Positions 2,659 to 59,086 of a stretch of DNA of 64,000 nt are shown piece after piece. The translations under genes and the position numbers were made by a program. This stretch comes from Syntrophotalea acetylenivorans (GTDB lineage Bacteria > Desulfobacterota > Desulfuromonadia > Desulfuromonadales > Syntrophotaleaceae). The stretch's first letter is position 1. The number at the start of each line of letters is the position of its first letter. Where the stretch lies: positions 1,240,001 to 1,304,000 of the forward strand of contig NZ_CP015519.1 in NCBI RefSeq assembly GCF_001887775.1, in the 5' to 3' direction. Below the pieces are notes generated by a model. It was not told the DNA's origin. It ran no database searches and worked only from the letters and a program-made list of their open reading frames with translations.

Positions 2659-3324
2659 ATGTTAGCCCTTGACCATCTAAAAAAACATCGTTCCGTCATG
2701 ATCTCGCTGCCACTCTCCGGTGGACAACCGCTGACCCTGGAATGCGTGGCCCGGCGCCGCTCTGTCGATCTGGTCGATGCGACTTTTCTGCCGGGGCAGC
2801 TGCCCCTCAAAGGCCTGGATCTGACCGGTACCGTCCGGCTTTTTTTCGAGGACGAAGGGCGCACCTTCAGGCTTCGAGCTAAAATCGAAGAGATTAACGG
2901 CGACGACAAGCTGCTTCTCAAAGCCATTGAAACGGCTTTGCAATATGGTGAGCGGGAATATTTCCGCGTCAACGCTGATTTTTCTGTCAAATACCGCCTT
3001 CTCACCGACGATGTGGATATACGTACCCGGCAGTTCAACGGTCGAATGAACATCAGCGGTGGCGGCATGCTGCTGCCCCTGCAAGAACGGGTAGGTAACG
3101 GTCAGAAGCTTTCCCTGACCCTGATTTTATGCAAGGACCCGCTTAAGGTCGTGCGTTGTACTGCCCAGGTGGTGCGTACCTGCCCCCTTGCCGATGGATT
3201 CAAAGGAGCCGGAATACACTTCACGGAGATTGAACCCCCTGACCGTGACAGCATCATCGCTTTCTGCATGGCCGCCCAACGGTTGGAATTAAGAAACAAG
3301 GTGCAAACCAAGGACCTGACTTAG
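2659..3324 (+). CDS. PilZ-domain c-di-GMP receptor, YcgR-like layout
   Basis: A 221-residue protein with an N-terminal beta-rich half (residues about 1-95, resembling the YcgR flagellar-brake domain) followed by a PilZ domain. The c-di-GMP contacts are visible: an RxxxR motif at R99-R103 and an NxSxxG motif at N131-S133-G136. Proteins of this layout bind c-di-GMP and slow or bias the flagellar motor, which fits its place just after the fliD-fliS-fliT genes. The start codon at 2659 has only a weak ribosome site. The 238 bases upstream hold a possible promoter (TTTGCG about 2471, TATGAT about 2495) but nothing conserved. A second, related PilZ gene follows after one dispersed hairpin repeat. 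Confidence 0.85.
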   Translation: MLALDHLKKHRSVMISLPLSGGQPLTLECVARRRSVDLVDATFLPGQLPLKGLDLTGTVRLFFEDEGRTFRLRAKIEEINGDDKLLLKAIETALQYGEREYFRVNADFSVKYRLLTDDVDIRTRQFNGRMNISGGGMLLPLQERVGNGQKLSLTLILCKDPLKVVRCTAQVVRTCPLADGFKGAGIHFTEIEPPDRDSIIAFCMAAQRLELRNKVQTKDLT

Positions 3325-3395
3325 TTTTCATCCGGAAACGGCCTTTTCCCATATGAAAACTACGCGGTGCCCATCCGAAGTTTCCTGATGGGCAC
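3325..3395 (+). repeat. Dispersed hairpin repeat, family A, copy 1 (short form)
   Basis: About 72 bases made of two inverted repeats: GTTTTCAT paired with ATGAAAAC, then GTGCCCATC paired with GATGGGCAC. The same unit recurs at 16104-16176 in the same orientation and, inverted and with an extra inner module, at 12874-13049. It begins at the stop codon of the upstream PilZ gene and may act as a transcript-end or RNA-stability element. No coding capacity. Confidence 0.9.
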
Positions 3396-9364: not shown

Positions 9365-9595
9365 TATAGAATGCTCTCTGCCCTGCAAGTGAGGTCGGTA
9401 AGCCCTTGCGGAATAAATATTGACCCGGGGTTTCTTCAGGGGCGCGGTGTGCCAGCCCAAGAACTTATTGGGACGCCTGATGCGGTTCACAGGAGACCCC
9501 ACCTAATTAGGACTCGCAGGAGGCCTAAAGACCCACGGCAGGCGTGGAGAGCTGAGAGATATAAGCGTCGTTTAGTTCGACGCTTTTCTTTTTTT
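9365..9595 (+). ncRNA. ssrS: 6S RNA (RNA polymerase regulator)
   Basis: The transcript region has a strong promoter, no credible reading frame and an intrinsic terminator. It folds by eye into the 6S plan. The closing stem pairs GCTCTC (9373-9378) with GAGAGC (9547-9552), CCTGC (9382-9386) with GCAGG (9538-9542), and GTG-A-GGTC (from 9389) with GACCCAC just before GCAGG. A large central bubble follows, then an upper stem pairing GGGGTTTC with GAGACCCC, ending in a CCCAA/TTGGG hairpin. 6S RNA mimics an open promoter and sequesters housekeeping RNA polymerase in stationary phase. The mature molecule would be about 180-190 bases. The identification rests on structure, not on a database match. 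Confidence 0.75.
9563..9595 (+). terminator. Intrinsic terminator of the 6S RNA gene
   Basis: AAGCGTCG, 7-base loop, CGACGCTT, then a T-rich tract (TTCTTTTTTT). A classical Rho-independent terminator ending the small RNA transcript ahead of the TraB-family gene. Confidence 0.9.
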
Positions 9596-10874: not shown

Positions 10875-11000
10875 TAGGATGACCAAACTGAAATTTTAGC
10901 CTACAAGGCTTGGTGTTTTTCAGGGACAAAGGCATACACCTGGTATGTCGAGGTCCTGAAAAAACACCGTAAGCCGTAGGGCGGACTTTTTGCGACGCCA
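10875..11000 (+). repeat. Dispersed hairpin repeat, family B, copy 1
   Basis: About 125 bases matching the units of the tandem array at 18516-18950. Shared parts are the CCTACAAGGCTTGGTG entry, the TTTTTCAGG / CCTGAAAAA stem with a GCATAC...GTATGTC inner hairpin, and the exit CGTAGGGCGGACTTTTTGCGACGCCA. It lies between the converging TraB and L,D-transpeptidase genes and has no coding capacity. Confidence 0.9.
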
Positions 11001-12800: not shown

Positions 12801-12873
12801 GGATTTAAAACATACCTCACTAGAAACAAAGCTTGTCGACTATGCTGTTTAATATACACTAATACACTGGTTG

Positions 12874-13049
12874 GTGCCCATCCGGAAACTTCGGATGGCA
12901 CCGCGTCGCTTTCATATGGGAAACGAGGAATTTTCTCCAAGGTCAAGGAAGTCAATCCCTTGCACGGAGGCGTAGCTGTTCTACGCCGCACACGCAAGCG
13001 TGCAGATTGACGCCGAGATAGGGGAAAAGGGCCGTTTCCGGATAAAAAC
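12874..13049 (-). repeat. Dispersed hairpin repeat, family A, copy 2 (long form with inner module)
   Basis: Inverted copy of the repeat at 3325 and 16104, but interrupted after TTTCATATGGGAAA by about 100 bases before the AAAGGGCCGTTTCCGG end resumes. The inner module has its own hairpins: GGCGTAG-CTGTT-CTACGCC and a GCACAC/GCGTGC stem. It lies between the aldehyde dehydrogenase and L,D-transpeptidase genes, both on the minus strand. Confidence 0.85.
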
Positions 13050-13059
13050 TAGCTGGATG

Positions 13060-14423
13060 CTAGCGTACCCATACGGTCTGGATATTGACAAATTCACGAA
13101 TTCCGTAATCAGCCAACTCCCGTCCATATCCTGATTCTTTAATGCCGCCAAAAGGCAAGCGCGGATCACTTTTAACCATACCGTTGACAAACACCGCCCC
13201 CGCTTCAATCTCTTCGGCCAAGGTCTCCGCTCGCCGGCTGTCGCCGCTCCAGATGGAAGCACCGAGACCAAAAGGGGTGTCATTGGCCACCGCCAGCGCT
13301 TCTGCCTCACCTGCTACCCGAATTACCGCGGCTACAGGGCCGAACAATTCCTGATCATAGGCAGGCATACCGGGAGAAACTTTGGCCAAAATCGTTGGGG
13401 ATAGTAATAACCGGCCTTAGGTAAGGGCTTGCCACCCAATATCAGCTCAGCCCCTGCAGCAATGGATTCCTGAACCTGGGCATGCAATTCATCCCGCAAA
13501 TCACCGCGGGCCATCGGACCGACCTGGGTCGTCTCCAACAAGGGATCGCCCACCTCCAGGGCAGCCATAGCCTGCCTCAACAGGTCGAGAAATTTTTCGT
13601 ATACCTCGTCGAACACGATAAAACGTTTTGCCGCGATACAGCTCTGCCCTGAATTCAAACAACGTGATCGCGCCCCCTGAGCTGCTGCTTCCTTCAGATC
13701 GGCATCGGGCATTACGATGAAGGGATCGCTGCCACCCAGTTCCAACACACTCTTTTTCAGCATGGCGCCCGCCTTGGCTGCCACCTTGCGACCGGCCAGA
13801 TCGCTTCCGGTCAGAGTAACCGCCTTTACCGCCGAATGGGCAATCACATCATCAACCTGGCCCGATCCGATCAGCAGGGTACGAAAAACCTGCGGGGGAA
13901 AACCGGCCCGCTCAAAGAGTTTCTCTATGGCCAAAGCGCAGCGGGGCACATTGGAAGCGTGTTTGAGCAGTCCGACGTTACCGGCCATCAGAGCCGGAGC
14001 GGCAAACCGAAACACCTGCCAGAAAGGAAAGTTCCAGGGCATCACCGCCAGAATCGCCCCCAGGGGACGAAAGGCAACCTGTGAATGGCCGGCATCGCAA
14101 CTCACAGCCTGGGGCGCCAAATAGTCACCGGCATGATCGGCGTAATGCTCGCATACCCAGGCACATTTGTCGATTTCAGCCAGACCCTCGGCCATCGGCT
14201 TGCCCATTTCTTCCGCCATCAGACAAGCCAGACGCTGCTGATCGCGACGTAATTCGTCGGCCAATGCCCGCATCAGTCCACTACGATTGTCCATGGACGT
14301 ACGCCGCCAGGCCGGCCAAGCCTCCTGCACCTGTTCAATGATTCGAGCAACCCGGGCAGGGGAATAGTCAGTAAAACGTTCCAATACTTGCCCGGTAATC
14401 GGGCTAATCGATTCAATCGCCAT
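13060..14423 (-). pseudogene. Succinate-semialdehyde-type aldehyde dehydrogenase, frameshifted
   Basis: Together the two frames give about 454 residues of an NAD(P)-dependent aldehyde dehydrogenase most like the Sad/YneI succinate-semialdehyde dehydrogenases. The catalytic Cys is in NSGQSC, the general-base Glu in LELGGSDPF, and the cofactor region is around MPWNFPFWQ. The frame is broken at the run GGGG (13397-13400 plus strand): upstream sequence ends ...AGYYYP and downstream continues in another frame as TILAKVSPGMPAYDQELFGP. Adding one base to the run restores the family sequence exactly, so this is a one-base deletion or a sequencing error. The start MAIESISP was chosen over a Met six codons upstream. 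The gene is divergent from the rhomboid gene. Confidence 0.88.
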
Positions 14424-14714
14424 TGGTTCAATCCATATCAAGTAGTTGAAGATAATCGTTACGTATCGAAATACTGTAAAACAACACCTATTGTCCGGCT
14501 AATCGACCGGGCAGTCAACCATCAGCACGATTTTCCTTCTACCGGACAACTTCTACCGGACAAATATTCCAATAGTGTTGCAACTATTCAGCAGTTGATC
14601 AGCAGACCGTTTTCTGCAATAGTTGCGAAGTTTCTCAGTAAAATAATAATTCCTGAAAGGCCACTTCAAAGGCTCCAAACCCACGACTCATCTTCCACCG
14701 GAAAGGACTCTACG

Positions 14715-16103: not shown

Positions 16104-16176
16104 GTTTTCATCCGGAAACAGCCCTTTTCCCATATGAAAACAACGCGGTGCCCATCCAAAGTTTCCGGATGGGCAC
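16104..16176 (+). repeat. Dispersed hairpin repeat, family A, copy 3 (short form)
   Basis: Close match to copy 1 at 3325: GTTTTCAT/ATGAAAAC arms followed by GTGCCCATCC/GGATGGGCAC arms, here a perfect 10-bp stem. It lies in the spacer between ybaK and pncB, about 30 bases upstream of the pncB start. Confidence 0.9.
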
Positions 16177-18463: not shown

Positions 18464-18492
18464 GGCCGGAGTCCACCGACTCCGGCCTTCTT
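18464..18492 (+). terminator. Intrinsic terminator after the cyclophilin gene
   Basis: GGCCGGAGT, loop CCACCG, ACTCCGGCC, then TTCTTT. Perfect 9-bp GC-rich stem with a short T-rich tail, 27 bases after the stop codon. Confidence 0.85.
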
Positions 18493-18515
18493 TGATGCTT
18501 TCAGAAACACAGATT

Positions 18516-18950
18516 GGATGGCTAAGCAAAAATGGCGTCCTACAAGGCTTGGTGGTTTTTCAGGGGTGAAGGCATACATCTAGTATGTCGAAGTCCTGAA
18601 AAGGCGCCGTAACGCCGTAGGGCAGACTTTTTGCGACGCCATCAGTGCTGTTCTCACAATAACTTATAGGATGGCTAAGCAAAAATTGCGTCCTACAAGG
18701 CTTGGTGATTTTTCAGGGGTGAAGGCATACACAAGTATGTCGAGGTCCTGAAAAAGCACCGTAACGCCGTAGGGCGGACTTTTTGCGACGCCATCAGTGC
18801 TGTTCTCACAATAACTTATAGGATGGCTAAGCAAAAATTGCGTCCTACAAGGCTTGGTGATTTTTCAGGGGTGAAGGCATACACAAGTATGTCGAGGTCC
18901 TGAAAAAGCACCGTAACGCCGTAGGGCGGACTTTTTGTGACGCCATCATC
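18516..18950. repeat. Tandem array of three family B hairpin repeats
   Basis: Three near-identical units begin at 18516, 18669 and 18821 (periods 153 and 152). Each starts GGATGGCTAAGC and contains GTCCTAC...GTAGGGC outer arms and a long stem GGTGnTTTTTCAGG / CCTGAAAAAGCACC with an inner GCATAC/GTATGT hairpin. Each ends CTTTTTGCGACGCCATC. Units 1 and 2 also share a 25-base tail (CAGTGCTGTTCTCACAATAA...) that the third lacks. Unit 1 differs by several bases, while units 2 and 3 are almost the same, so the newest duplication is 2 to 3. The array ends exactly at the stop codon of the minus-strand methyltransferase gene. Confidence 0.95.
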
Positions 18951-23458: not shown

Positions 23459-23533
23459 AAATGGCTAAGCAGTATGCAGAAATCCTGAAAAATTCCTGTA
23501 ATACAGGCGGGGGGCTTTTTGCGACGGCATCAG
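23459..23533 (+). repeat. Degenerate partial family B repeat
   Basis: Retains the ends of the unit seen at 18516 (ATGGCTAAGC at the left, CTTTTTGCGACGGCATCAG at the right) and an ATCCTGAAAA core, but about half of the inner part is gone. As with the triplet array, it abuts the stop codon of a minus-strand gene. Confidence 0.75.
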
Positions 23534-58978: not shown

Positions 58979-58983
58979 ACCTT

Positions 58984-59018
58984 GATGGCGTCGTAAAAGG
59001 TCCGTCCTACGGCGTTAC
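58984..59018 (-). repeat. Half-copy of the family B repeat
   Basis: GATGGCGTCGTAAAAGG ... CGTCCTACGGCGTTAC is the reverse complement of the right end of the family B unit. Only this end is present. It lies just after the HDOD gene stop. Confidence 0.75.
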
Positions 59019-59086
59019 GACGAATACATCAAACTTAGCATCATCAACAACTGCTGCGGTATCGACCTTCACTACTGGAGGTAATC

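Follow-up and report, generated by a model that had tools for sequence, protein, structure and literature searches.

The 64,000-nucleotide window analysed here (positions 1,240,001 to 1,304,000 of contig NZ_CP015519.1 of Syntrophotalea acetylenivorans) contains a repeat that occurs once in a long form and twice, in the opposite orientation, in a short form from which an inner module is missing. This raises the question of what kind of element exists in such states, and which of them gave rise to the other. We find that the repeat is a non-autonomous transposon of the miniature inverted-repeat (MITE) type, 29-250 bp long, with terminal inverted repeats and target duplications. Sequence comparison furthermore makes it very probable that this MITE family is moved in trans by an insertion sequence (IS) of the ISNCY family with a DDE transposase. 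The copies in the window and their parts are the following.

12868..12873, no strand: left target duplication TGGTTG (partner TAGCTG, 4 of 6 bases equal)
12874..13049, plus strand: long MITE copy, 176 bp
12874..12901, plus strand: terminal hairpin 1, holding the left terminal inverted repeat GTGCCCATCCGGAAAC
12918..12923, plus strand: GGGAAA, left endpoint repeat of the presumed deletion that leads to the short form
12924..13027, plus strand: 104-bp inner module with nested hairpins, absent in the short form
13022..13027, plus strand: GGGAAA, right endpoint repeat
13034..13049, minus strand: right terminal inverted repeat, whose minus-strand reading is the GTTTTYATCCGGAAAC end
13050..13055, no strand: right target duplication TAGCTG
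3324..3395, minus strand: short MITE copy, 72 bp, with the duplication GACTTA / GAGTTA (5 of 6)
16104..16176, minus strand: short MITE copy, 73 bp, with the exact duplication ACCCTG / ACCCTG

A sequence-only reading of the window had placed the 176-base unit at 12874 exactly to the base and had estimated about 100 extra bases, containing further hairpins, between its arms; the module measures 104 bp and inner hairpins are present in it. The two short units of 72 bases needed small corrections, the one put at 3325 being located at 3324-3395 (72 bp) and the one at 16104 having the correct start, but a length of 73 bp. The arms common to the long and short window copies comprise 25-35 nt with 89-96% complementarity. 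The ends of the MITE read GTGYCCATCCGGAAAC and GTTTYCATCCGGAAAC and are flanked by a 6-bp target duplication with the consensus TARYTA; CATCCGGAAAC is found at both ends as the terminal inverted repeat, the outermost bases being unequal. The folding energy of the long copy is lower than that of all 200 shuffles on each strand (z of -3.8 and -5.1), and there is no transposase gene inside it.

The long copy sits between two minus-strand genes, which we take, by eye from their sequence, to encode an L,D-transpeptidase and an aldehyde dehydrogenase. The latter consists of two overlapping minus-strand open reading frames (13060-13389 and 13332-14441, 109 and 369 aa), apparently owing to a frameshift in the gene or a sequencing error. 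Elsewhere, the window holds a 6S RNA at 9372-9554 on the plus strand (65 bits) and a second, unrelated repeat family (10875-11000, 18485-18948, 23472-23529, and 58983-59022), which forms three 152-bp tandem units at 18485-18948 and is single or inverted at the other places.

Distribution, mobility, and candidate mover

The search of the window's own genome, a single contig of 3,218,469 bases, with the long copy yielded 32 pieces (E<=1), with 3e-60 as the best non-self match, and two further queries yielded 31 and 29 pieces; the repeat family is not a product of chance. By eye, 29 places were classed: 15 copies are long, 3 extra-long, and 6 short, to which are added one very short copy (L026, about 53 bp), one of intermediate size (L011), and three partial ones. 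Beyond this genome, which is included in the counts, long-form matches are found in 34 of 58 relatives (E<=1e-3) and in 111 of 194 genomes of the class (E<=1e-6). A stricter pattern resulted in 59 stretches in named records, mostly from Desulfuromonadales, Desulfobacterales, Syntrophobacterales, and Geobacter-like metagenome-assembled genomes (MAGs), together with single MAGs labelled Chloroflexi and Latescibacterota, whose matches may be due to misbinning. Several distant copies keep the core and have lost the ends, as expected for old relics.

Two of the core-only copies (L114 and L115), which come from two families of the order, adjoin a seemingly identical gene end, perhaps reflecting an old insertion common to both. 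One extra-long copy abuts a Moco-II RNA motif (L040:1709-1755, 59 bits), and stretches resembling the flank at L040 recur at G000:C1:2075436 and 2075874. At another locus, a tmRNA gene on the minus strand (L007:988-1345) lies about 100 bases from a long copy.

The element inserts as a unit. With the ends fixed and all loci fetched, exact 6-bp duplications flank 54 of 112 long copies (mean of 500 shuffles 2.4, maximum 8), 12 of 26 short copies (mean 0.8, maximum 5), and 7 of 16 extra-long copies (mean 0.6, maximum 4). The target reads TA(G/A)(C/T)TA over the 110 copies with at least five of six matching bases. The longest word common to both flanks has a mean length of 5.7, compared with 3.5 +- 0.2 for re-paired flanks (maximum 4.0 in 500), in 39 of the 40 copies fetched from relatives; L130, whose left end was not located, was left out. 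Two of the three window copies have orthologous empty sites in genomes of the same genus, the copy at 12874 in G004, where the site reads TGGCCG, and the copy at 16104 in G001. The sequence-only reading had proposed either a non-autonomous element that moves or an RNA element family, and had named target-site duplications and conserved junctions as the signs to look for. The mobile part is borne out by the duplications, far above the shuffled level in long, short, and extra-long forms, and by the short-form junction, which recurs in 10 of the 15 genomes searched; the RNA part is neither demonstrated nor disproved.

A simple ORF caller placed a gene on either side of 88 copies, and 11 of these were left out as being far from genes. 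The remaining 77 are located between minus-strand genes (29), plus-strand genes (16), convergent genes (19), or divergent genes (13). The right end adjoins the 3' end of a gene in 48 of the 77 copies, and the right-hand gene follows at a median distance of 13 bases, which could be explained by a TAG-rich target rebuilding the stop codon.

A candidate mover is found in G010, where a repeated 1683-bp unit (L289 and L306) begins with the MITE end GTGTCCATCCGGAAAC. This IS has the ends GTGTCTATCCGGAAAG ... GTTTCCGGATGGACAC and encodes a 454-aa protein matching the NCBIfam model ISNCY_1 with 483 bits (cutoff 325) and the Pfam domain DDE_Tnp_1. Nine complete IS copies (G010, G005, G025, and G056) have the same ends as the MITE; seven are flanked by an exact 6-bp duplication and one by a 7-bp duplication (TAGACTA), while the ninth is decayed. 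In G025 and G056, the IS ends are unequal as in the MITE, one carrying GTTTCC and the other GTGTCC. Among more distant Desulfobacterota, there are IS ends of the sequence CATCCATAAATG or TTTCTGGATG, and the MITE ends in named Desulfobacterales MAGs are identical to these; in G382, an IS copy and a long MITE are 60 bp apart. Ten distant transposase loci were fetched, two of which show an exact 6-bp duplication, the others being decayed, in tandem, partial, or having one end not found. L289:1-4101 contains two tandem IS copies with one TAGCTA in common and a third, inverted copy nearby; the flanks of two of these IS copies look duplicated.

The IS transposase is found in 6 of 58 relatives (E<=1e-20), and relatives of it in 7 of 395 genomes of the phylum (E<=1e-100). 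At E<=1e-20, the IS is absent from the window's own genome and from the MITE-rich genomes G002, G006, and G008; conversely, G005 and G025 carry the IS and have no MITE match at E<=1e-3. With no IS in the window's genome, the MITE copies of this genome are probably relics that are now immobile, unless they are served by an unrelated enzyme. Candidates for an autonomous copy were discarded: the exact CATCCGGAAAC matches checked in this genome and in G006 are MITE pieces or other sequence, L186 is truncated with no transposase seen, and L242, from a pair search for distant ends, is a false lead.

In the mechanism that we favour, the transposase would bind the ends GTGYCCATCCGGAAAC and GTTTYCATCCGGAAAC, cut the MITE out or copy it, and insert it at TARYTA with a 6-bp duplication, frequently directly at a stop codon. 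In the long form, which bears a large imperfect palindrome, slippage across the short direct repeats that lie at the palindrome base (GGGAAA, TCCGGATG) would delete the interior, giving the 73-bp and 29-bp forms with both ends kept. Other palindromic modules would be gained inside, giving the extra-long forms, and every form would still be able to transpose.

Possible folding of the top strand

A different reading is that the copies form a family of RNA elements, whose top strand is transcribed and folded and which are kept by selection on the RNA, mobility being only the means of spread; the RNA might act on mRNA stability or processing, or might titrate an RNA-binding protein. We consider this unlikely. 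Over 124 distinct long copies, a strand-neutral set of 50 core pairs contains 319 G-T pairs against 58 A-C mismatches, with 29 pairs leaning to G-T and 13 to A-C (sign test, p 0.02), and taking one copy per genome gives averages of 118 versus 30. The consensus fold keeps 30 pairs on the top strand and 5 on the bottom strand, a two-strand comparison that is biased by its own folding, which is why the pair set without G-U was used. Changes on both sides are seen in 16 of 45 pairs, but could alternatively stem from template switching inside the palindrome.

Without the six richest pairs, the sign test yields 23 versus 13 (p 0.13), and hairpin 1 shows no clear bias (8 versus 4). Transcription does not favour the folded strand either, as the genes flanking the 77 placed copies are on the minus strand in 29 cases and on the plus strand in 16, and wobble pairs stabilise single-stranded DNA too. 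No Rfam family is reached at the curated cut-off: the window element has no match at the gathering cut-off, and six further copies (E<=5) gave a single weak match, mir-2066 over L040, with 22.6 bits (gathering 100). The G-T bias hints that a folded top strand, be it RNA or single-stranded DNA, matters; since it stems largely from six pairs and transcription does not favour the strand, we regard it as a lead only. The same applies to the count of GGA motifs: ANGGA, the motif of CsrA, occurs 2.48 times per copy on the plus strand versus 1.10 after shuffling, and 0.65 versus 0.28 times on the minus strand (124 copies), because these copies are related.

Origin of the size forms

The element comes in forms of 29 bp, 73 bp, 176 bp, and about 205-250 bp. 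The description as a two-state repeat is therefore right about the short and long states, but counts too few of them. The short form equals the long form minus 104 bp, which is the exact spacing of the two GGGAAA repeats (12918 and 13022) at the base of the inner palindrome, and this argues for deletion over insertion. All 26 short copies measured, with substitutions allowed only in the right part, are 73 bp long. The 41 matches to the short-form junction (<=3 mismatches) leave 5 of the 15 genomes without a match, and at least two of these matches, in G008, have a different junction. Short copies have substitutions in common with the long copies of their own genome: 13.8 of 28 short copies find their nearest long copy there, against 3.5 expected, a kinship that fits recurrent deletion, but also gene conversion or homogenisation. 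The 29-bp form, hardly more than both ends, is flanked by TAGCTG on each side in G006 (L187) and G010 (L302), and its sequence would fit a deletion between the TCCGGATG repeats.

Extra-long copies, three in the window's genome and four in G006, have a 60-75-nt module with at least three hairpins. In G465, a related module is found at two places within the element and in opposite orientations (L378, L381, and L382), and the named MAGs show other palindromes at other places in the element, indicating that modules have been gained as well as lost. The G465 module of several hairpins has a GGACCGCGAAGGCGCC core and may be a repeat of its own.

Such gains, in both orientations in G465 and as diverse palindromes in the named MAGs, lend something to the reverse history, in which the inner module of the long form was inserted into a short ancestor. 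We nevertheless hold this history to be improbable: the long form is found across the class and beyond, whereas the short form is matched only in family f1 and in G056 among the 15 genomes searched (families f1, f20, and f5), and the length difference equals the GGGAAA spacing. The sequence-only reading had left both histories standing; the spacing favours deletion for the short forms, and the gain of modules is evident in the extra-long ones.

One might also think of a class-wide mobile RNA module, with conserved top-strand hairpins that have GGA motifs in their loops (in the extra-long module on stems with compensating changes), dozens of transposed copies jointly serving as sponges for an RNA-binding protein, for instance CsrA, and deletion forms that are mobile without the load. 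We give this combination very little credence.

Comparison with known elements

The favoured reading, a MITE moved in trans, links the element to the ISNCY-family IS (NCBIfam NF033593), which has 15-16-bp ends and a 6-bp TARYTA duplication as in the MITE, but differs in that the MITE is without a transposase; beyond the ends, nothing in common was noticed. A REP-type palindrome mobilised by a Y1 (HUH) transposase would account for the small size, the hairpins, the TAG-like flanks, and the location beside gene ends, but is scarcely credible, as REP insertion is not known to leave a target duplication, whereas the element has genuine 6-bp duplications of varying sequence and a DDE transposase was found with the same ends. 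The GTAG-tagged REPs are likewise short palindromes near gene ends, but carry their tag at a single end and are associated with RAYT genes (PMC3733652), unlike the MITE with its two inverted ends, 6-bp duplication, and DDE partner.

MITEs, and MITEs of varying size, are already known. The Correia element of Neisseria has internally shortened forms, and its ends and duplication differ from those of this MITE. It is described as non-autonomous, located near genes, and able to be cut in mRNA (PMC10969869). The likeness, set out by description only, consists in the lack of autonomy, the position near genes, and the shortened forms.

A literature search with five sequence stretches of the element gave no match, and no paper linking the family to an ISNCY transposase came up among those listed in literature searches. 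The present family brings together in one picture a bacterial MITE spanning orders, its likely mover, and graded internal deletions. If mobile, the 29-bp form would be among the smallest transposable units. Genomes with the MITE and without the IS, and the reverse, make the loss and regain of mobility testable, and the bias of the stems towards one strand does the same for an RNA role.

The genome G465, which is probably Geobacter uraniireducens, has copies of the element of about 177 bp and of about 233-243 bp; TAACTA or TAGCTA duplications accompany those of the smaller size. The Chunjie element of G. uraniireducens Rf4 was reported by Chen et al. (2008, Genetics 179:2291), and one copy is said to be inside a phosphate-uptake operon. 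None of the 10 flanking proteins scanned in G465, which has 24 match places, is an ABC phosphate transporter; beside one copy, a protein that we take by eye to be PhoU-like is encoded. Chunjie is described in a review as a MITE of 178-235 bp with inverted ends, direct repeats, and size variants, of which there are many partial copies in intergenic positions (PMC10969869). The MITE described here shares the inverted ends, direct repeats, size variants, abundance of partial copies, and intergenic location, and by this comparison of descriptions, Chunjie may well belong to the same family.
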